NCBI GenBank assembly: GCA_016874235.1
Contig: VGUJ01000001.1
Coordinates: 186,001-250,000, forward strand
Origin: Gammaproteobacteria bacterium
GTDB taxonomy: Bacteria > Pseudomonadota > Gammaproteobacteria > Steroidobacterales > Steroidobacteraceae
DNA length: 64,000 bases
Reading direction: 5' to 3'
Below, piece by piece: positions 33,407-42,420 of this stretch. A program made the translations under genes and the position numbers. Position 1 is the first letter of the stretch; the number at the start of each line of letters is the position of its first letter. The notes beneath the pieces were generated by a model. It saw nothing but the letters and a program-made list of their open reading frames with translations. It searched no databases and was not told the DNA's origin.

Positions 33407-33814
33407 TCATGGCACGGGCATCGTTTGGCTATCGCGCAAGGCGAGCCAGCCACGTGCCACGCGATAGAGCACCCAAGCGCCGATGATCAGGAAGCCGATC
33501 GCGGCGGTAGCGAAGCCGACCAGAATCAGCATGAGTGGTGCGGAAAAAATGAGCACCAGAGCACTCGCAATGAAGGCAATCCAGAACGTGCGGATCTGCC
33601 ACGAGAAGTGTGATGCGAGCCAGGTTCCTTGGACATCGCGTCGCCGTGCGTAATTCATGATGACTGCCGCGATGGATGGCAGACCGAAGATGAAACTGCC
33701 GACGATGGTGGCTGGTCCGGTGATGCCGATGAGTACGGACAGTGCATGCAGTCCGTAGACCACATGCGTCCAAGTGAGGAGAGACGGATCGGGCGTGCGT
33801 TGGGGTTCGTTCAT
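33407..33814 (-). CDS. DUF4870-like small membrane protein
   Basis: 135 residues from the ATG at 33814 (4-bp overlap with the thioesterase stop). Three hydrophobic segments (about 16-42, 66-90 and 94-118) indicate an integral inner-membrane protein. Conserved-looking stretches are WTHVVYGLHALSVLIGITGP, FIFGLPSIAAVIMNY and GTWLASHFSWQIRTFW, the last typical of DUF4870-type proteins common in proteobacteria. Function is unknown. Its place between a thioesterase and lptM at the end of the arginine operon gives no clear clue. Confidence 0.75.
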   Translation of the reverse strand: MNEPQRTPDPSLLTWTHVVYGLHALSVLIGITGPATIVGSFIFGLPSIAAVIMNYARRRDVQGTWLASHFSWQIRTFWIAFIASALVLIFSAPLMLILVGFATAAIGFLIIGAWVLYRVARGWLALRDSQTMPVP

Positions 33815-34251
33815 GGTCGTCGCTTGATGATGGCGATGGTGATACGAGAAATGCAAACGGGTTGACCCTGCTCGTTGCTGATATCGATGGTCCAGACCTG
33901 GCTGCGGGCGCCGGCATGTACGAGTCGAGTGATGCCCGTCACGGTTTCGCCCTCGCGCGCGGGGCGTAGGTGGTTGGCATTGATTTCCTGACCGACCGCC
34001 GCCTGGTCGTCGTTGAGAGACCAATTGGCGGCAATGCTCGCTAAGGACTCGGCAAACGCGACTGAGGCGCCGCCATGCAAGATGCGCATCGGTTGGCAGT
34101 TGTGTGAGGTGACCGGCATCGTGCCTTTGAGATAGTCGTCCCCGACCTCAGTGAGTACGATGCCAAGCGTCTCGACCATGGTGTCGTGCGCTTTCGCGTT
34201 CATCGCCGCGAGGGTTGCCTCGGGGCGCCAAGGAATTTTTTGTCCTTTCAC
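33811..34251 (-). CDS. Hotdog-fold thioesterase (PaaI/EntH-like)
   Basis: 146 residues. The hotdog fold is recognised by MRILHGGASVAFAESLASIA (about 55-74), where the HGG turn and the Glu in FAES form the usual 4HBT active site, and by EINANHLRPAREGETVTG. Members hydrolyse aryl- or acyl-CoA thioesters, including mischarged CoA adducts. The start overlaps the argH stop by 4 bp and its stop overlaps the next gene by 4 bp, so it is co-translated within the arginine operon. Any role in acyl-group turnover of the acylated arginine route is speculative. Confidence 0.88.
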   Translation of the reverse strand: MKGQKIPWRPEATLAAMNAKAHDTMVETLGIVLTEVGDDYLKGTMPVTSHNCQPMRILHGGASVAFAESLASIAANWSLNDDQAAVGQEINANHLRPAREGETVTGITRLVHAGARSQVWTIDISNEQGQPVCISRITIAIIKRRP

Positions 34252-35453
34252 GAGTTACCGCCTTCTTTGTCGGTTCGCAAAGCAGCGCCCACCCGTCTGT
34301 AGGCCTCTCTGAAGGGGATCCGTTCTTTGACTACGAGTTCATTAGCGCGTTCAGCCGCATGAATTGCCGGATCCATCATGATGCGCTCTGGCTTGAAGGA
34401 CATCGCATCGATGGCCGGCGCGACGATCGACGTGCTCGCGAGCGCGAGATCGATACCGCGGAAGAGCGGCGCCTTGAGCAATTGCAGATCGCGCTGATAG
34501 CCCGACGGCAGTTTGGCGAAGATGCCGAGCGCTTCGACGAGGCAGCCGTGTGCCGAGGCGGTTCGACCGCGCAGCAGCTCGAATACATCAGGATTGCGCT
34601 TTTGCGGCATGATCGAAGAGCCCGTCGTGAACTCGTCCGGCAGCTCGAGAAAGGCAAACTCCTGCGTATAGAAGAGACAGGTATCGGCCGCAAATCGTCC
34701 GAGGTCTTGCATCAACAACGTGATTTCGAAAAGTAGCTGCGCTTCGGCTTTGCCACGCGAGAGTTGCACCGCCGTGACCGGTTCGTGTGTTTCGTCGAAG
34801 TCGAGCGCCTGACGAGTCGACTCTCGGTCGATGGGCAGACCGGGCGTGCCGTAGCCTGCAGCCGAGCCGAGAGGATTTTTTCCGAGACGCCGTTGCACGG
34901 CGCGCAGGCCCGACGCATCGTCACGCAGCTCGGATGAAAAGCCGTTCGCCCATAGGCCGACGGAACTCGGCATCGCCTGCTGCATGTGGGTGTAGCCTGG
35001 CAACTCGATGTCGCCTTGTCGCGCAGCGAGGCGATCGAGCGCAGAGGCCACCTCTTCGGCTCCTCGCGTCAGTTGCTCGGTGACGTCGCGCAAGTAAAGC
35101 CGAAGTGCCGTCAGCACCTGATCGTTACGAGAGCGTCCGAGGTGAATACGACCACCCGCTTCGCCGATTTTCGCCGTGAGGCGCCGCTCGAGCGCAGTCT
35201 GACCGTCTTCGTCCGAGAGCTCGATCTTCCACTCACCTTTGGCATGCGATGCAGCCTGGGCCTCGAGGCCGCTCTCGATGGCTTCGCAGTCGGCATCCGA
35301 GAGGAGGCCTTGCTCGTTCAGCATCTGGGCGTGAGCGATCGAGGCGCGTGCGTCATACGGAACAAGGCGCTCGTCGAGAGCGTGATCCTCTCCCGCCGTG
35401 AAGGCGAGCACCCGCTCATCAAGCGGTGCGCCTTTATCCCAGAGGCGACTCAT
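34248..35453 (-). CDS. argH: Argininosuccinate lyase (short form)
   Basis: 401 residues, shorter than the ~460 of E. coli ArgH; the missing part is at the C-terminus. The catalytic core is intact: SRNDQVLTALRLYL, PGYTHMQQAMPSS with the catalytic His, and the superfamily signature GSSIMPQKRNPD with the catalytic Ser. It splits argininosuccinate into arginine and fumarate, the last step of the pathway. The gene overlaps argB upstream and the thioesterase downstream by 4 bp each. The short C-terminus seems natural, since the ORF ends directly in the next coupled gene. Confidence 0.95.
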   Translation of the reverse strand: MSRLWDKGAPLDERVLAFTAGEDHALDERLVPYDARASIAHAQMLNEQGLLSDADCEAIESGLEAQAASHAKGEWKIELSDEDGQTALERRLTAKIGEAGGRIHLGRSRNDQVLTALRLYLRDVTEQLTRGAEEVASALDRLAARQGDIELPGYTHMQQAMPSSVGLWANGFSSELRDDASGLRAVQRRLGKNPLGSAAGYGTPGLPIDRESTRQALDFDETHEPVTAVQLSRGKAEAQLLFEITLLMQDLGRFAADTCLFYTQEFAFLELPDEFTTGSSIMPQKRNPDVFELLRGRTASAHGCLVEALGIFAKLPSGYQRDLQLLKAPLFRGIDLALASTSIVAPAIDAMSFKPERIMMDPAIHAAERANELVVKERIPFREAYRRVGAALRTDKEGGNS

Positions 35454-36397
35454 GACTTCGAGCTGCTGCCGGCCGCAAGTTCGGTCGGTGCGAGCTTGCC
35501 GATGTCGGCCACGACGAGTGTGCCGGTTCCTTCGTTGGTGAAGACCTCTGCGAGGATGGCATCCGGCGACTTGTAAGAGATAACGTGGACGCGTTTGACA
35601 CCACCCTGGATTGCACCCTCGATCGCTTTTGCTTTTGGGAGCATGCCATCGATGATGCGCTTCTCGTCGCGTAGCCGTTTAATTCCCGCGAGATCCGTAC
35701 AAGAAATGACGGAGGACGGGTCCTCTACGCGCTCGAGGATGCCGGGAGCGCCGGTACAAAGAATAAGTTTTTCTGCGCCGAGCGCTGCCCCGATGGCCGA
35801 GGCTACGGTATCGGCATTGATGTTCAGCAAGGTGCCAGAGCCGTCGCTGGAGAGCGGGGAGATCACTGGCATGAGTCCATTGTCGAGGAGTTTGCGCAGG
35901 ACGTCGGTATCGATGTAGTCGATGTCGCCGACGAAACCGTAGTCGATGGTCGCATCGCCCGTTTGTAGTTTTACGGGGGCGCGCTTGTGAGCCTGGATGA
36001 GACCGGCATCGACGCCGCTGAGACCGATCGCTCGAATCTCGAGCTCACGGCAGGTTGCGAGAATGCGTGTATTGATGAGTCCCGAGAGCACCATGGCCGT
36101 GGCATCGATGGAGCGAGCATCGGTGACACGCCGGCCTTCCACCATTTGGGTCGGTACGCCGAGCTTCTCGGTGACTTCGGTGAGCTGCGGACCGCCGCCG
36201 TGCACGAACACGACGCGGATTCCGAGCGAGTGGAGAATGGCGATCTGTTCGATCAAGCCTCGCGTGGCATCGGGATCACCGAACACGCCACCGCCTGCTT
36301 TGACGACGAAAGTCTTCCCCTTGTATAAGCGGATGTACGGGGCCGCGCTACGCAGTGCTCGGATGACGGCGGCAGGGTCGACTCGGTGCGTGATCAT
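35450..36397 (-). CDS. argB: Acylglutamate kinase (ArgB)
   Basis: 315 residues. Amino-acid kinase fold: KGKTFVVKAGGGVFGD, FVHGGGPQLTEV, GLSGVDAGLIQA and LNINADTVASAIG are the conserved blocks. It phosphorylates N-acetylglutamate, or another N-acylglutamate. The N-terminal 25 residues (VIRALRSAAPYIRLYKGK) resemble those of the N-acetylglutamate synthase/kinase group found in Xanthomonadales, but no C-terminal GNAT acetyltransferase domain is present, so the synthase activity must come from elsewhere. Overlaps argF' and argH by 4 bp each. Confidence 0.93.
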   Translation of the reverse strand: MITHRVDPAAVIRALRSAAPYIRLYKGKTFVVKAGGGVFGDPDATRGLIEQIAILHSLGIRVVFVHGGGPQLTEVTEKLGVPTQMVEGRRVTDARSIDATAMVLSGLINTRILATCRELEIRAIGLSGVDAGLIQAHKRAPVKLQTGDATIDYGFVGDIDYIDTDVLRKLLDNGLMPVISPLSSDGSGTLLNINADTVASAIGAALGAEKLILCTGAPGILERVEDPSSVISCTDLAGIKRLRDEKRIIDGMLPKAKAIEGAIQGGVKRVHVISYKSPDAILAEVFTNEGTGTLVVADIGKLAPTELAAGSSSKS

Positions 36398-37407
36398 CGT
36401 TCGGCTCCTCCATTCGAAAGCATGCGGTGCAGCACCGCCATCTGTGCGGGCAAACGATTGTGTGCCTCGCGTTGAACCACACTGCGCGGACCGTCGAGTA
36501 CTTCATCGGCGACGGCTACGTTGCGGCGTACCGGCAGACAATGCATGAACTTGCAGTCGCTCGCGGATTTTGAAAACCAATTCTCGCGTACGCACCAGTC
36601 GGTGAGGCCCGCGCGTAGCGTGGCATCGCCGACGGAGTCGCCGTAATGCGCAGTCGATCCCCATTCTTTGGCGTACACCACGTGAGCACCGTTGAGCGCT
36701 TCGGATCGATCGTTGGTTTCGCGAACCGAGCCGCCGGAGGCCGCTGCGGCCGCTCGCGCTTTATCCATGATTTCTGGTGGGAGCGCAAAACCCTCCGGGC
36801 GAAGCACGACGACTTCCATGCCGCGTTGTGCGGCTATGTGCACGGTGGCGGCAGGAACGGCGAGCGGCGTCACGCGCGGATGATTCGCCCAAGTGAGCAC
36901 GAACTTCGCACGCTGAGGTACTCGAAGGTCTTCGAGGGTTTTCCAGTCGGCGAGCGCCTGACACGGGTGATTCATTGCCGACTCGAGATTGATGAGCGGC
37001 TTGTCGACGACTGCAGCCATCGCCTTGAAGTTGGTCTCTGCCAAATCATGACGAAGATCTTTGCCCTCGGCGAAGGCGCGGATACCGAGTGCGTCGGCAT
37101 ACGATGCGAGCACGGGGAGTCCTTCGCGTACGTGCTCGGCCGCCGCGCCATTCATGATCGCGCCGGTGCGTGTTTCGAGTTGCCAAGTTCCCTGGCCCGG
37201 TGTGATCACGAAGGACTGGCCGCCGAGCCGCATCATGCCGACTTGAAACGAAGAGAGCGTGCGTAGCGAGGGGTTGAAGAATACGAGCCCGAGAATCTTC
37301 CCAGTGAGTGCGCGCGGTTCGGGGTGTTCTTCGAGGCGACGAGCGAGCGCGAGCAGATCGAGGATCTCCTCACGACTGAAGTCTGCGAGATCGAGAAAGT
37401 GTTTCAT
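36394..37407 (-). CDS. N-acylornithine carbamoyltransferase (AOTC/SOTC family, ArgF')
   Basis: 337 residues from the ATG at 37407, which overlaps the argD stop by 4 bp; an open frame further upstream is not used. The carbamoyl-phosphate loop reads FFNPSLRT instead of the STRTR of ornithine transcarbamoylases. The protein also has INLESAMNHPCQALADW and FMHCLPVRRN, the latter diagnostic of N-acetyl- or N-succinylornithine carbamoyltransferases from Xanthomonas and Bacteroides. In the loop that selects the acyl group the sequence is MNGAAAEHV: the position occupied by Glu92 in the Xanthomonas and Pro90 in the Bacteroides enzyme appears to be Ala. It makes N-acylcitrulline, so a deacylase must act afterwards. 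Confidence 0.9.
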   Translation of the reverse strand: MKHFLDLADFSREEILDLLALARRLEEHPEPRALTGKILGLVFFNPSLRTLSSFQVGMMRLGGQSFVITPGQGTWQLETRTGAIMNGAAAEHVREGLPVLASYADALGIRAFAEGKDLRHDLAETNFKAMAAVVDKPLINLESAMNHPCQALADWKTLEDLRVPQRAKFVLTWANHPRVTPLAVPAATVHIAAQRGMEVVVLRPEGFALPPEIMDKARAAAAASGGSVRETNDRSEALNGAHVVYAKEWGSTAHYGDSVGDATLRAGLTDWCVRENWFSKSASDCKFMHCLPVRRNVAVADEVLDGPRSVVQREAHNRLPAQMAVLHRMLSNGGAER

Positions 37408-38540
37408 AGGTCTTGCAGGGCCTCTCTCAGGAGGTCGACGTGTGTTTCCTGAAGAATGTACGGGGGCAAGAGTCGGACAACATGCGGATCGCCACTCGTG
37501 CCGACGAGGATGTTCCGCTCCAGCAGTGACTTCTGGATATCTTTGGCCGGCCGAGAGCAAATCAGGCCGTGCAGGAAACCCGCGCCCTGGTGACCGGTGA
37601 CGGGGCCCACAGTGCATGTATCTCGCAAGTACTTTGCAACACGACGAACGTTTTCGAGAAGTTTTTCGTTCTCGATAGCTTCGATCACCGCCTCGATGGC
37701 CGCGCAGGCCATCGGTCCGCCGCCGAAGGTGGTACCGAGCCCTTCCAGTTTGAGAGCGCTCGTGACGCGAGGGGTCATCAGCAAGGCGCCACAGGGAAAG
37801 CCGTTACCGAGCGCTTTGGCCGTCGTGATCATGTCTGGCATGACACCGTAGAAATGCGCGGCGAAAGGCTGACCGCTACGACCGACGCCGATTTGTACTT
37901 CGTCGAAGATGAGCAAAGTACCGGTCTCGTTGCAGCGCGCACGAAGTGCAGCGAGGAATTCGTGACCCAAGTCGAAGGCACCGCCGACACCTTGAACCGG
38001 TTCGACGATGACCGCCGCCGTATCGGAATCGATCTGACCCGCGATCGCGCTGACGTCACGTCGCGGGATCCAGCCGATGTCGAAAGGTGCGCGTGGGAAT
38101 TCGTACCATTTTTGATCTGCTCCCCAGGTCACTGCGCCGGCGGCCGCAGTGCGTCCATGCCAGCCGCCTTCGATAGCGACGATCTTGGAGCGATGCGTCA
38201 TCTTGAACGCCATACGCAGTGCGTTTTCGTTGGCTTCTGCGCCCGAGTTCACGAAAAAAATGCTGTCGAAATGACCGCCCGCGAAGCGGGCGAGCCGGGT
38301 GGCAGCGCGTGCTCTCACATCCATGGGCACGGCGTTACTCTGGAAGCTACAAGCATCGGCTTGTCGAGCCAGCGCGCGCGTCCAGCCCGCGTGCTTGTAG
38401 CCGAGCGCCGCGACGGCGTGACCGCCATAAAGATCGAGAATATGGCGCCCGTCCCGCGTATGCAGCCACACGCCTTCCGCATCGATCACCTCGATGGGGT
38501 ATTGCGCGAAAACCGGAGCGAGATGATCGATAGGACTCAT
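37404..38540 (-). CDS. argD: Acylornithine aminotransferase (ArgD-like, class III PLP)
   Basis: 378 residues. PLP enzyme with ILDLYGGHAVAALGYKH near the N-terminus, NSGAEANENALRMA (phosphate site), EPVQGVGG, LLIFDEVQIGVGRSG and TTAKALGNGFPCGAL, where the Lys forms the Schiff base. It converts N-acylglutamate semialdehyde to N-acylornithine, which is the substrate of the downstream carbamoyltransferase. It starts 24 bp after argC, the widest gap in the arginine operon, and its stop overlaps the ArgF' start. Confidence 0.93.
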   Translation of the reverse strand: MSPIDHLAPVFAQYPIEVIDAEGVWLHTRDGRHILDLYGGHAVAALGYKHAGWTRALARQADACSFQSNAVPMDVRARAATRLARFAGGHFDSIFFVNSGAEANENALRMAFKMTHRSKIVAIEGGWHGRTAAAGAVTWGADQKWYEFPRAPFDIGWIPRRDVSAIAGQIDSDTAAVIVEPVQGVGGAFDLGHEFLAALRARCNETGTLLIFDEVQIGVGRSGQPFAAHFYGVMPDMITTAKALGNGFPCGALLMTPRVTSALKLEGLGTTFGGGPMACAAIEAVIEAIENEKLLENVRRVAKYLRDTCTVGPVTGHQGAGFLHGLICSRPAKDIQKSLLERNILVGTSGDPHVVRLLPPYILQETHVDLLREALQDL

Positions 38541-38564: not shown

Positions 38565-39632
38565 TCAGGTCCAGCCTGCAGCCGGTGCCGTGAGACCGAT
38601 ATGCTCGGGCAAATTGAGTAAACGGTTCATCCACTGCACGGCGCCCCCGGCGGCGCCCTTGGTGAGGTTGTCGATCACGCACATCACGGCGAGCGTGCGG
38701 CCATCGGTGGAGGCATGCAGACACGCGTAATTACTCGCGACCACGTCCTTGAGGCGAGGCGGGGTATCGACGATATGAACGAATACCGAGCCCTCATAGA
38801 AGCCGCGCAACTTAGTGAGGAGCGCTTTAGAATCTAGGCCCACATATGCCGGCGCGAGGGTGGCTTGCACGGCGACATGGATCCCGCGGGCGAACGGACC
38901 GGAGTGAGGTACGAAGGCGAAGTTCGCCGTGATTCCGCTTGCCGCCGTGGCGCAGGCGGTGATCTCCGGAGCATGACGGTGGGCGAGTGCGTTGTAAGCG
39001 TAAAAATCGCTGTGCCGCGTTGGATGATGCGTACCGTCGACTGGCTTTCGGCCTGAGCCTGTGCTGCCGGTGACGCCGCTGACGAAGAGCGTCGGCGTGA
39101 CGAGACCCAGCGAGAGTAACGGCACACTCGCGAGCAAAGTTGCCGTCGCGAAGCAGCCCGGGTGGGCGACGTGCGGTGTCGGTGACTGTTGCAAATGCTC
39201 GGGCAGGGCGCAGGTGAAATCTTTGAGTCGTGACGGTGCGCCGTGAGGATGCTTGTAGACCGCGGCATACGCATCCGCCGAGGCGTAGCGGTAGTCGGCC
39301 GAGATATCGACGACGCGGGGATGGGTGCCCGCAGCTTCCGCAGCCTTCAACAGCTTGTCGATGAGCTCGGCACTGACGCCATGAGGTGCTGCCGAAAAGA
39401 CAGCGCTCTTCGGCAGCGTCGTGATGAGTGTCGTGATCTCCGATTCGGAGAGGAAGCGCAGGTCACCCAGCGCTGGCGCGAGGTGGGGGAGGGCTTTTGC
39501 GACCGATTCGCCGGGTTGCGAGTCGGACATGACACCGGCGATTTCGAGTTGCGGGTGACCCGCCACGAGGCGAAGGACTTCGCCCGCGACGTAGCCCGTG
39601 CCGCCGAGCACGAGTGTCGGAATCTTCTTCAC
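38565..39632 (-). CDS. argC: N-acylglutamyl-phosphate reductase
   Basis: 355 residues. NADP-binding GGTGYVAGEVLRLVAGHP near the N-terminus, the catalytic Cys in HPGCFATATLLAS (about residue 160), GSTGSGRKPVDGTHH, and the substrate His in YNALAHRHAPEI. It reduces acylglutamyl phosphate to the semialdehyde. The start overlaps the DUF1611 stop by 4 bp, which ties synthesis of the two proteins together. Nothing suggests loss of activity. Confidence 0.95.
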   Translation of the reverse strand: MKKIPTLVLGGTGYVAGEVLRLVAGHPQLEIAGVMSDSQPGESVAKALPHLAPALGDLRFLSESEITTLITTLPKSAVFSAAPHGVSAELIDKLLKAAEAAGTHPRVVDISADYRYASADAYAAVYKHPHGAPSRLKDFTCALPEHLQQSPTPHVAHPGCFATATLLASVPLLSLGLVTPTLFVSGVTGSTGSGRKPVDGTHHPTRHSDFYAYNALAHRHAPEITACATAASGITANFAFVPHSGPFARGIHVAVQATLAPAYVGLDSKALLTKLRGFYEGSVFVHIVDTPPRLKDVVASNYACLHASTDGRTLAVMCVIDNLTKGAAGGAVQWMNRLLNLPEHIGLTAPAAGWT

Positions 39633-40708
39633 GATGCTGCCACCACGGGGGATCGTGCGCCGAGTCCGATGGCATCGATGACGCAGTCGCCGAGCGCTGC
39701 GCCATCGGATAGCGCATTGAAGGCAGCGACGTTCATCTGCTCGCGAATGATGTCGACGCCGACGGCGTTGTCGGTGGCTGGCCCGGTCACCGCGCAGGGC
39801 TCGATCCCGAAGCGCTCACGCAGTAATTTGACGCCGCCCCAGGCTGCGACGGGATCGTTCGCCGACAGGACGACACCCGTCAGTGCTCGACGGATGTCAG
39901 CGCTTTCGAGAATCGAGTCGACGCCGTAGGTGCCGAGAATGCCATCGCCAAGCTCGAAGACGATGACATCGGGTTTCTTGACTGCGATGTCGGTGATCAT
40001 CGTGCGTGTGAGCGCAGGACCGACGGCACGAGTCGTCGTGATGATCCCGAGATCGGTGAAGATCATGGAATTTCTCGCGCCCGCATCTTCCATGGCGAGG
40101 ATGTCGCGACGGAGTGAGACGCCTGTCGCCTTGAAGCAATCGACGACGAGACCGCGATGACGCATACGACTTACCATCGCGCAGGCCGCAGCGGTCTTAC
40201 CTGCTTCCATGCACGTGCCAGCGAGTGCCACGACGGGAACGCCTTGGGAATCGAGCGGCGCTGCGAGATCGAGTTTTCGATAACCGGCTCGCGCTGGCAC
40301 GCCGATACGCTCGCCGAGGTAGGGGAAGTGCAACACCACGCCCAGCACGCGACAGTCGAAGGGTTTGCCTTTGTCAGGGTTGGTCGAATCGCATACGCCC
40401 AAGACACCGCCGATGTTGAGCATCTGGATCACATCGCCCACGGCGAGTTTCTCGGGTACGTGACCCGAGTAACCGAATAGGGCTTTTCGATGTCCAAGCG
40501 CGCCGACGACGATGTCACCCTTCGTGACCTTCGCCATGCGGCCGCTCGTCAGTTCGAGCGTGTTATAGCTCGACTTGGTGTTCAGGATTTCCACGACCAC
40601 CACGACACCTTCTTCCGAAGGCAGATTTTCCGTGGCGATGCGCAACTCTTGTCCGAGACCACAGGCCTGCGTGACGGAGGCGATCTTGTCGACGACGATA
40701 GTTCTCAT
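39629..40708 (-). CDS. DUF1611 P-loop protein inside the arginine operon; candidate N-acylglutamate synthase
   Basis: 359 residues. The first ~150 residues are a beta-rich domain (GVVVVVEILNTKSSYNTLEL, GALGHRKALFGYSGH). The C-terminal part is a P-loop domain with Walker A GTCMEAGKT (164-172), then VDCFKATGVSLRRD and PDVIVFELGDGILGTYGVDS. This is the DUF1611/COG3367 family. From memory, one member (DgcN) was reported to N-acetylate D-glutamate. The gene overlaps argG upstream and argC downstream by 4 bp each, so it belongs to arginine synthesis. No argA, argJ or NAGS domain is in the cluster. I infer that it may make the N-acylglutamate that ArgB uses; a regulatory role is the alternative. Confidence 0.8.
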   Translation of the reverse strand: MRTIVVDKIASVTQACGLGQELRIATENLPSEEGVVVVVEILNTKSSYNTLELTSGRMAKVTKGDIVVGALGHRKALFGYSGHVPEKLAVGDVIQMLNIGGVLGVCDSTNPDKGKPFDCRVLGVVLHFPYLGERIGVPARAGYRKLDLAAPLDSQGVPVVALAGTCMEAGKTAAACAMVSRMRHRGLVVDCFKATGVSLRRDILAMEDAGARNSMIFTDLGIITTTRAVGPALTRTMITDIAVKKPDVIVFELGDGILGTYGVDSILESADIRRALTGVVLSANDPVAAWGGVKLLRERFGIEPCAVTGPATDNAVGVDIIREQMNVAAFNALSDGAALGDCVIDAIGLGARSPVVAAS

Positions 40709-41931
40709 TTCTTGAAAGTCCCCTGAGCTGTCGCGAGCTCACCTGCTCGACGATGGAAAACACCTGTGAGTCCGACGATGCGTGAGAAGCCGAGTGCGTC
40801 GGCAGCCGTCCATTCTCCCGTGGCTTCACCGTAAACGCCCTTCGAGGCGGCCATCAGCGAGTAAGGAGAGTCCACGCCCTCGACGAATACCGAGCCCGGG
40901 CGGAAGAGCACGTTTACGACGCCCGTTACGCGTTGCTGAGACGAGATGAAGAACGCCTCGATGTCCCGGCATACCGGATCGAGGAGTTGCCCTTCATGAA
41001 CCCAGTCGCCATAAGGTCCAGACAGCATTTCTTTGATTCGCTGCTGTCGCCCGGTGAGTACGAGCTTCTCGAGTTCGCGATGGGCATTGAGCAGCACTTC
41101 GGCAGCGGGCGCTTCGAAGGCTACGCGCCCTTTGGTGCCGATGATGGTATCGCCGAGATGAATGCCCCGACCGATGCCGAAAGGCCCGGCAAGCGCTTCG
41201 AGCGTCTCGATGACCTCCACGGGTGACATCGCTTTGCCATCGAGGCCGCAGGGCACGCCGTTTTGAAAGTGCACCGCATACCGCTTAGGTGCTCGCGGTT
41301 GAGTGAACGCCTCTTTCGAGAGTACCCAGGCGTCATCGGGAATGCTGCCTTGGGAGGTCAAGGTCTCTTTTCCGCCGATGCTCACGCCCCAGAGGCCGCG
41401 ATTGATCGAGTAGGCCGCGCCGAAGGGTGGCACGGGCAAGTTTCGAGTCTGCAGAAATTCCAACTCTTCCTGTCGCTTGAAGTGTCGATCTCGGACGGGT
41501 GCGATCACCTCGAGTTCGGGCGCGAGCGTTCGCAGGGCGACTTCAAAGCGAACTTGGTCGTTTCCGGCGGCCGTGCAGCCGTGGGCAATGCTGCCCGTAC
41601 CGAGCTTTCGCGCCATGACCGCGATCGTCTGGGCTTGCATCACGCGTTCGGCACCGACGCAGAGCGGATAGAGCTGACCACGTCGGACGTTGCCCATGAT
41701 GAGGAATCGCAGCACTTGATCAAAGTAATCGGCACGGGCATCAATCTGGTGGTGCTCGACGGCACCGAGCGCGAGCGCTCGTTGTTCGAGCGTCTTGGCC
41801 GCCTCAGCATCGATACCGCCCGTGTCGACCGTGACCGTGATGATTGGGCGTTGATATTGCTCTTTGAGCCAAGGCACCAAGAAAGAGGTGTCGAGGCCGC
41901 CCGAGTAGGCGAGAACGATGGGCTGAGACAT
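40705..41931 (-). CDS. argG: Argininosuccinate synthase
   Basis: 408 residues, normal length. PP-loop ATP-pyrophosphatase motif AYSGGLDTSFLVPWL at residues 9-23, and the conserved IAHGCTAAGNDQVRFE (about 115-130). It condenses citrulline and aspartate to argininosuccinate. It begins 9 bp after argR and overlaps the DUF1611 start by 4 bp. It is the first enzyme gene of the operon, as in Xanthomonas clusters where argG also lies near the acylornithine carbamoyltransferase gene. Confidence 0.97.
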   Translation of the reverse strand: MSQPIVLAYSGGLDTSFLVPWLKEQYQRPIITVTVDTGGIDAEAAKTLEQRALALGAVEHHQIDARADYFDQVLRFLIMGNVRRGQLYPLCVGAERVMQAQTIAVMARKLGTGSIAHGCTAAGNDQVRFEVALRTLAPELEVIAPVRDRHFKRQEELEFLQTRNLPVPPFGAAYSINRGLWGVSIGGKETLTSQGSIPDDAWVLSKEAFTQPRAPKRYAVHFQNGVPCGLDGKAMSPVEVIETLEALAGPFGIGRGIHLGDTIIGTKGRVAFEAPAAEVLLNAHRELEKLVLTGRQQRIKEMLSGPYGDWVHEGQLLDPVCRDIEAFFISSQQRVTGVVNVLFRPGSVFVEGVDSPYSLMAASKGVYGEATGEWTAADALGFSRIVGLTGVFHRRAGELATAQGTFKK

Positions 41932-41940
41932 GGAAAATCC

Positions 41941-42390
41941 TTAGACGCGGAAGAGTTCGCGCAGGCGCGCGACGACGGCCGTCTGCGCAGCAGCGCTGTC
42001 GGTGGCAATGAAAATGGTGTCGTCACCCGAGATCGTTCCGGCGATTTCGGGCCACTCGGCCTTATCGATGGCGATCGCGACACTTTGGGCCGCGCCGACG
42101 GTGGTACGCAGGACGGTGAGCGAGCTGCCGGCGGTGGCGACCCCTCTGACGAACTGCCGCAGGGTTCCAAAGTCATCGAGTGAGCGTTGGGTGGAATCAG
42201 GGGCGAGGTAGCGCCCCCCGGCCTTGAGTACGCCGAGATCGCGCAGGTCGCGACTCACCGACGACTGGGTGACTGGAAACCCCTGCGCCTTCAAAAGGTC
42301 GACGATCTCCCCCTGTTTGCGCACGGCACTCCCGCGCAGGAGGCGCAGGATGGCGTTTCGGCGATCGGTTTGTTGGAGATCGGTCTGCAT
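41941..42390 (-). CDS. argR: Arginine repressor ArgR
   Basis: 149 residues from the ATG at 42390; an ATG at 42411 is also possible but falls inside the operator. The N-terminal winged helix (AILRLLRGSAVRKQGEIVDLL, with TQSSVSRDLRDLGV as recognition helix) is followed by the C-terminal hexamerisation and arginine-binding domain (GTISGDDTIFIAT). ArgR is the first gene of the arginine operon, 9 bp before argG, so it would autoregulate the whole unit. No Shine-Dalgarno sequence precedes either start; the message may be leaderless. Confidence 0.94.
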   Translation of the reverse strand: MQTDLQQTDRRNAILRLLRGSAVRKQGEIVDLLKAQGFPVTQSSVSRDLRDLGVLKAGGRYLAPDSTQRSLDDFGTLRQFVRGVATAGSSLTVLRTTVGAAQSVAIAIDKAEWPEIAGTISGDDTIFIATDSAAAQTAVVARLRELFRV

Positions 42391-42406
42391 AAAAGTGCGC
42401 GCATTA

Positions 42407-42420
42407 TGCATATTGATGCA
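42407..42420. promoter_or_regulatory. ARG-box-like operator before argR
   Basis: TGCATATTGATGCA is a perfect inverted repeat of TGCAT/ATGCA with a 4-nt spacer, the same geometry as the ARG box half-sites TGAAT/ATTCA, differing at one symmetric position. It sits 17 bp upstream of the ATG at 42390, where a bound repressor would cover the promoter or transcription start. A second related half-site ATGCA is near 42387, at the argR start. A binding site for ArgR is likely but not proved. Confidence 0.6.

Follow-up and report, generated by a model that had tools for sequence, protein, structure and literature searches.

Gene X within the arginine operon

An arginine operon lies on the minus strand of the window (the whole 64,000-nucleotide stretch analysed here), and with HMM identification of the arg genes its order reads argR, argG, gene X, argC, an argD-family aminotransferase gene, argF', argB and argH (Table 1). 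Gene X is a single intact reading frame of 359 amino acids, which has 4 bp in common with argG upstream and 4 bp in common with argC downstream. These overlaps were already described in the initial annotation and are borne out by the ORF coordinates, as is its statement that the operon lacks argA, argJ and a GNAT domain on argB: in the HMM scan, ArgB consists of the kinase domain only. The start of argF' at 37410 was set by alignment, the ORF caller running on to 37617. At the distal end, a gene for a hotdog-fold thioesterase (33811-34251) shares 4 bp with the end of argH; among the related loci inspected (the best 80 of 311), many of which end earlier, 24 have a relative behind argH.

Table 1. 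Genes of the arginine operon and parts of protein X, with the basis of each assignment.
Feature	Coordinates	Strand	Basis
argR-type repressor	41941..42411	-	Pfam domains above cut-off; TIGR01529 below cut-off
argG, argininosuccinate synthase	40705..41931	-	TIGR00032, 284.7 bits (cut-off 268.2)
X, candidate N-acyl(succinyl)-L-glutamate synthase	39629..40708	-	359 aa, ATG start; ORF list, argG-X-argC conservation, genome without ArgA, ArgJ or NAGS-K domain
X, N-terminal strand-rich domain, residues ~1-150	40259..40708	-	low-confidence model, no significant fold match
X, Walker A, residues 164-172, GTCMEAGKT	40193..40219	-	alignments; start of BioD-like P-loop domain (~155-350)
argC, N-acyl-gamma-glutamyl-phosphate reductase	38565..39632	-	GTG start; TIGR01850, 256.5 bits (cut-off 233.6)
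argD-family aminotransferase	37404..38540	-	TIGR00707, 302.7 bits, below cut-off of 410
argF', N-acylornithine transcarbamylase, SOTCase-like, A91/P182/A299	36394..37410	-	NF003384, 350 bits (cut-off 288)
argB, N-acylglutamate kinase without GNAT domain	35450..36397	-	TIGR00761, 208 bits (cut-off 151.3)
argH, argininosuccinate lyase	34248..35453	-	TIGR00838, 298 bits (cut-off 279.5)

A scan of GTDB species genomes yielded 311 stretches that encode relatives of X, and the best 80 of these, with 74-93% identity over X and titles mostly of Gammaproteobacteria and Steroidobacteraceae, were inspected. Gene X adjoins arg genes in all of these best 80 of 311 loci, one of which (L080) is from the cultured Povalibacter uvarum DSM 26723. 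Within the same set, argG is found in 79 loci and argC in 78, both argC-less loci running off the contig; the one locus with no argG match, L036, reads argR-X-argC. The gap between argG and X does not exceed 100 bp in 77 of 79 loci, nor does that between X and argC in 77 of 78, and the argG-X overlap is exactly 4 bp in 25 of 79. Mean identity to the window across the best 80 of 311 amounts to 81.4 for X (80 loci) and 80.6 for argG (79 loci), with lower values of 63.9-76.0 for argC, argD, argF', argB, argH and argR; X is conserved as well as argG and better than the remaining arg genes. The intact frame and the conservation beside arg genes rule out a chance ORF or a degraded gene.

Distribution of gene X and of known acylglutamate synthases

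Among 369 genomes sampled evenly from the window's class, 28 match the X profile: an upper tier of 10 scores above 300 bits and a lower tier of 18 at ~62-105 bits. The ten genomes of the upper tier (X genomes) span the window's order and three other families, and all ten carry argG-X-argC. Two operon orders occur among them: G276, G360, G038 and G112 show argD-argF'-argB-argH-argG-X-argC, and the operon pieces of G225 are as in these four, spread over two contigs. Across 397 genomes sampled from the phylum, X is detected at E 1e-40 only in the window's genome and in G598, a genome placed in another class, where the protein is 70% identical and the arrangement is argR-X-argC-argB, on a short flank without argG (locus L176).

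The initial annotation suggested a search of the rest of the genome and a survey of other genomes for the known synthases. In the window's genome (1.8 Mb, 27 contigs, 95.4% complete), ArgJ has no match on any of the 27 contigs, the ArgA profile (TIGR01890) picks up nothing but the ArgB of this operon, with a sub-cut-off score, and the NAGS-K GNAT domain (PF04768) is absent. The GNAT families searched were PF00583 and PF04768; the former matches four proteins, one of them RimI above cut-off and three (L083-L085) without family assignment. In the class sample, surveyed for X next to argC, ArgA (E up to 1e-60) is found in 248 of 369 genomes, namely in 0 of the 10 X genomes versus 248 of the 359 others (Fisher p 1.1e-5, without phylogenetic correction; the ten genomes share ancestry, so the counts are not independent). 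The presence of ArgA in the ten X genomes and in the 18 genomes of the lower tier was read by eye from the match list. ArgJ is likewise absent from all ten X genomes, and so is PF04768, which is present in 4/4 genomes with an acetyl-type transcarbamylase; PF04768 matched 0 of 14 named control genomes, its matches in 4 of 18 genomes serving as the positive control. Protein X itself matches neither GNAT, the domain of the known NAGS kinds ArgA, NAGS-K and ArgA2, nor PF01960, that of ArgJ.

Family and fold of protein X

The initial annotation regarded X as a DUF1611 protein and DgcN as its precedent within the family; neither assignment stands. The score of X against PF07755 (DUF1611) is 15.2 bits (E 0.014), below the cut-off of 25, and X has no match at E 0.001 in either Pfam or NCBIfam. 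A PF07755 search of the 369 class genomes matched 20 genomes, none of them via X. Separate DUF1611 copies occur in four of the ten X genomes (G015, G161, G276 and G360), and in the window's genome and G363 the PF07755 matches reach only 26 bits, to proteins with BioD-like starts. Comparison of the X-clade profile with 14 true DUF1611 proteins, among them the close DgcN relative L177 (489 bits to 7XRJ), gave 30% probability, over the P-loop half. Collectively, the sub-cut-off score, the genome search and the profile probability rule out X as a member of DUF1611. The Walker A motif differs as well: GxDCxxGK[MKR] is found in 13 of the 14 fetched DUF1611 proteins and GTDGAIGKR in one, whereas X departs from this form, its GKT being invariant in 37/37 rows of alignment A1 and 11/11 rows of alignment A2. 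The full motif of X reads GTxMxxGKT or GTxAxxGKT in 35 A1 rows and 9 A2 rows, with GSCM in the other 2 A2 rows.

The predicted model of X (mean pLDDT 73), better in the P-loop half than in the N-terminal half, matches CTP synthase, BioD, the DUF1611 structures 2OBN and 2G0T, and DgcN (7XRJ) with Z values of 15-17, mostly over residues ~155-350. The best match is 3of5 by Foldseek and 4zdj by Z; 2obn and 2g0t reach 16.2 and 7xrj 15.3. With Z values so nearly tied, the modelled fold names a class for X and not a function. The likeness of DgcN, 2OBN and 2G0T to X consists in the BioD-like P-loop domain (Z 15.3-16.2 in the model comparison) and is not specific, BioD and CTP synthase having equal scores. 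By its sequence and model, protein X belongs to a separate P-loop family, related to DUF1611 at the fold level at most, with DgcN as a remote fold-level analogue. DgcN reportedly acetylates D-Glu, and the PDB title of 7XRJ reads N-acetyltransferase DgcN. In the accessible text of a citing paper, dgcN is placed in D-Glu metabolism (PMC12363236). The N-terminal domain of X taken alone (pLDDT 66) has no match at E <=0.001, a missing match that is no evidence either way, and a phmmer search of X against the PDB led nowhere.

An alignment of 11 diverse X proteins shows, among its invariant residues, the Walker A Gly-Lys-Thr, Lys193, Arg201-Asp202, E-x-G-D-G and Asp285-Pro286. Dethiobiotin synthetase BioD and CTP synthase are the closest folds, and their Walker A and the following lysine line up with those of X; the sequence match, however, covers no more than the P-loop and falls short of significance (E 0.57), and X has an extra N-terminal domain. 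In BioD, the lysine after the P-loop that aligns with Lys193 (in the same non-significant match), together with a later Glu, is presumably catalytic. Binding of ATP and Mg by X is suggested because the Walker A GKT is intact, the lysine aligns with that of BioD and E-x-G-D-G is acidic.

The lower tier of X-profile matches consists of X-like paralogues (L101-L120; 20 loci in 18 genomes, ~62-105 bits). For 18 of them, homology to X extends over 290 columns (E 6.7e-52), and all 18 share the GKT Walker A; unlike X, they stand outside arg operons, with no arg gene nearby in 20/20 loci (flanks of ~1.5 kb or less). ArgA is present in 18/18 of these X-less paralogue genomes. In the tree, a supported branch (98/96) separates the X clade from the paralogues, long-branch warnings concerning other parts of the tree. 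To label the paralogues canonical DUF1611 proteins would be wrong: among the five scanned, only L101 reaches the PF07755 cut-off. Their neighbourhoods are of at least two kinds, one with a flavin reductase and an M20 hydrolase (L199 and L203; the reductase also in L201), the other with an ABC transporter (L198, where a porin and a protein weakly matching a hydrolase also lie; an ABC-F-like protein in L205).

The acyl group and the predicted role of protein X

The acyl group handled by the pathway can be approached through the diagnostic residues of ArgF'. In the portions of the literature consulted, the Xanthomonas AOTCase has Glu92, Asn185 and Lys302, and SOTCases have A/S/P/V/Q, P and V/I/E at these positions (PMC4581275), while a succinyl preference results from having S, P, A or V at the first of these positions (PMC7311316). 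A match to NF003384 (E up to 1e-60) is found in 18 of the 369 genomes, comprising all 10 with X and 8 of the 359 others. In the ten X genomes, position 92 is A (5), P (3) or V (2), position 185 is always P, and position 302 is E (5), V (2) or A (3), never Lys; the four acetyl-type enzymes of X-less genomes (G010, G159, G263 and G350) uniformly have E, N and K. Two sequences with a gap at position 92, L137 (from G063) and L139 (the second copy of G161), are outside these residue counts. The window ArgF' has A91, P182 and A299 at these positions, and thus agrees with SOTCases at positions 92 and 185 and differs at 302, where the Ala shared with two kin lies outside the published V/I/E list; because of this third residue the enzyme is called SOTCase-like, on sequence grounds, and not SOTCase. 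Furthermore, ArgF' is matched in 72 of the 80 related loci (the best 80 of 311), and of these, the 69 with a residue at position 92 all show A. Since the diagnostic residues are not of the acetyl type, the pathway most likely proceeds on N-succinyl intermediates, and X would most likely be an N-succinylglutamate synthase. The Xanthomonas-type pathway of NAGS-K and AOTCase is similar in the transcarbamylation of an acylated ornithine, but its genomes (4/4) combine residues E/N/K and the PF04768 GNAT domain with the lack of X.

Four further X-less genomes match NF003384. In G363, ArgF' is of the succinyl type (P, P, V), and the operon encodes an M20 deacylase and an argininosuccinate synthase with an N-terminally fused GNAT domain (L140:12821-14704). 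G363 is thus a natural control, with a GNAT next to argG where X stands in the X genomes. G317, of the same genus as the X genome G112, has a non-acetyl-type ArgF' on a 3-kb contig that ends inside argF', and no ArgA, ArgJ or PF04768 was found in its genome; G147 also has a non-acetyl-type ArgF' on a 3-kb contig, together with ArgA and an ArgJ fragment. These two are exceptions without an identified partner synthase, for which an assembly gap or contamination may be guessed. In the eighth, G063, position 92 falls in a gap, and the match to ArgJ is fragmented.

No deacylase was found in the window's arginine operon by the HMM scan. Elsewhere in the genome, the sole match to TIGR01910 (ArgE/DapE) at E 1e-15 is DapE, above cut-off; M20 matches number five, the scan covering all except L089 and L090. 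A DapE relative is present in 10/10 X genomes, as a fragment in one, assignment beyond the window's genome being by identity only and L175 of G161 standing outside the scan; ArgE above cut-off occurs in two X genomes (G276 and G360). DapE, an enzyme of the lysine pathway and the best candidate deacylase in the window's genome, cleaves an N-succinyl amine and may, by analogy, cleave N-succinylcitrulline.

The conserved operon place, the absence of the searched synthases, the co-occurrence with a non-acetyl-type transcarbamylase and the P-loop class of the modelled fold make it fairly probable that X is the missing acylglutamate synthase and, jointly, that the acyl group is succinyl. The proposal of the initial annotation that X replaces the missing NAGS is in this way supported by comparative genomics (operon place, and synthase absence in 10/10 X genomes); acetyl as the acyl group gives way to succinyl, which is likelier with SOTCase residues at two of three positions of ArgF' and a third that is not of the acetyl type. 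X would make N-acyl-L-glutamate, most likely N-succinyl-L-glutamate, as the first step of arginine synthesis. Its succinylated product would be taken on by ArgB, ArgC and ArgD, the SOTCase-like ArgF' would yield N-succinylcitrulline, a deacylase outside the operon (candidate DapE) would release citrulline, and ArgG and ArgH would complete the synthesis. A known counterpart is the Bacteroidetes GNAT ArgA2 (BT3761), proposed with genetic support as N-succinylglutamate synthase in the available parts of two papers (PMC7311316, PMC9026213). ArgA2 resembles X in the inferred reaction and the SOTCase partner, and differs from it in having the GNAT fold, X being a P-loop protein without GNAT match; in X, a P-loop family would have supplied a non-orthologous substitute for NAGS.

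Should X be an acylglutamate synthase that uses acetyl or another small acyl group, ArgF' would simply have drifted at its diagnostic residues. NF003384, whose cut-off is passed, carries the label N-acetylornithine carbamoyltransferase, position 302 of the window enzyme is Ala, the fold relative DgcN is titled an N-acetyltransferase, and two X genomes have ArgE above cut-off. However, positions 92 and 185 are of the succinyl type in 10/10 X genomes and of the acetyl type in 4/4 NAGS-K genomes, and the only TIGR01910 match at E 1e-15 in the window's genome is DapE, which together render this alternative unlikely. The operon also leaves two steps without an enzyme, the deacylase among them, and the G363 operon has both a GNAT and an M20 protein; X might therefore deacylate N-acylcitrulline, or transfer its acyl group to glutamate in an ArgJ-like cycle, with the first acylation elsewhere. 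Such a role seems quite improbable, since a DapE relative is present in 10/10 sampled X genomes and a known synthase of the kinds searched in none, since it is the GNAT of G363 that joins argG, next to the place of X, and since a Walker A motif would not be expected in a hydrolase.

Alternatively, the synthase might be a hidden GNAT elsewhere in the genome, and X might regulate the arginine operon or play an auxiliary part in it. The three unassigned GNATs L083-L085 would lend themselves to this explanation, the GNAT search having been confined to PF00583 and PF04768 and a short NAGS being conceivable. The occurrence of X in 80/80 loci (the best 80 of 311) and the lack of ArgA, ArgJ and NAGS-K in 10/10 X genomes speak against it; moreover, the GNAT of G363 matches none of the four in the window's genome, and the invariant residues of X look enzyme-like. 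It is regarded as very improbable.

For the predicted N-succinylglutamate synthase, the donor could be succinate with ATP or succinyl-CoA. The intact Walker A favors ATP. The CoA route fits the reported DgcN activity, and the ATP route fits Walker A and the BioD-like fold. In the least certain part of the proposal, X would convert succinate with ATP into an acyl phosphate, which the glutamate amine would then attack, by analogy with BioD, which acts in this way on a carbamate. That X is specifically a BioD-type, ATP-dependent succinate:L-glutamate ligase, working with neither CoA nor a GNAT in a gammaproteobacterial succinylated pathway with deacylation by DapE, is a tentative and rather doubtful proposal.

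If X is the predicted synthase, the gap in arginine synthesis would be filled for a group of Gammaproteobacteria that is sizeable and has cultured as well as uncultured members (311 relative stretches counted, 80 inspected), and a function would be gained for a P-loop clade whose scanned members have no family above cut-off (six in Pfam, the window's in NCBIfam). The succinylated route, described for Bacteroidetes in the parts of the literature consulted, would then also occur in Proteobacteria with a different first enzyme; the pathway type is already known, and the first-step enzyme would be new. Gap-based tools would presumably miscall such species as arginine auxotrophs. In the open-access literature searched, no publication, assay or mutant of an X-type synthase was found, nor a record of arginine prototrophy for Steroidobacter or Povalibacter, a term search of the available text of PMC7966939 being empty.

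A second transcarbamylase is encoded in G161 (L152:7317-8390, L160). It has a gap at the diagnostic loop residue and directly adjoins a YgeY-type M20 hydrolase above cut-off.
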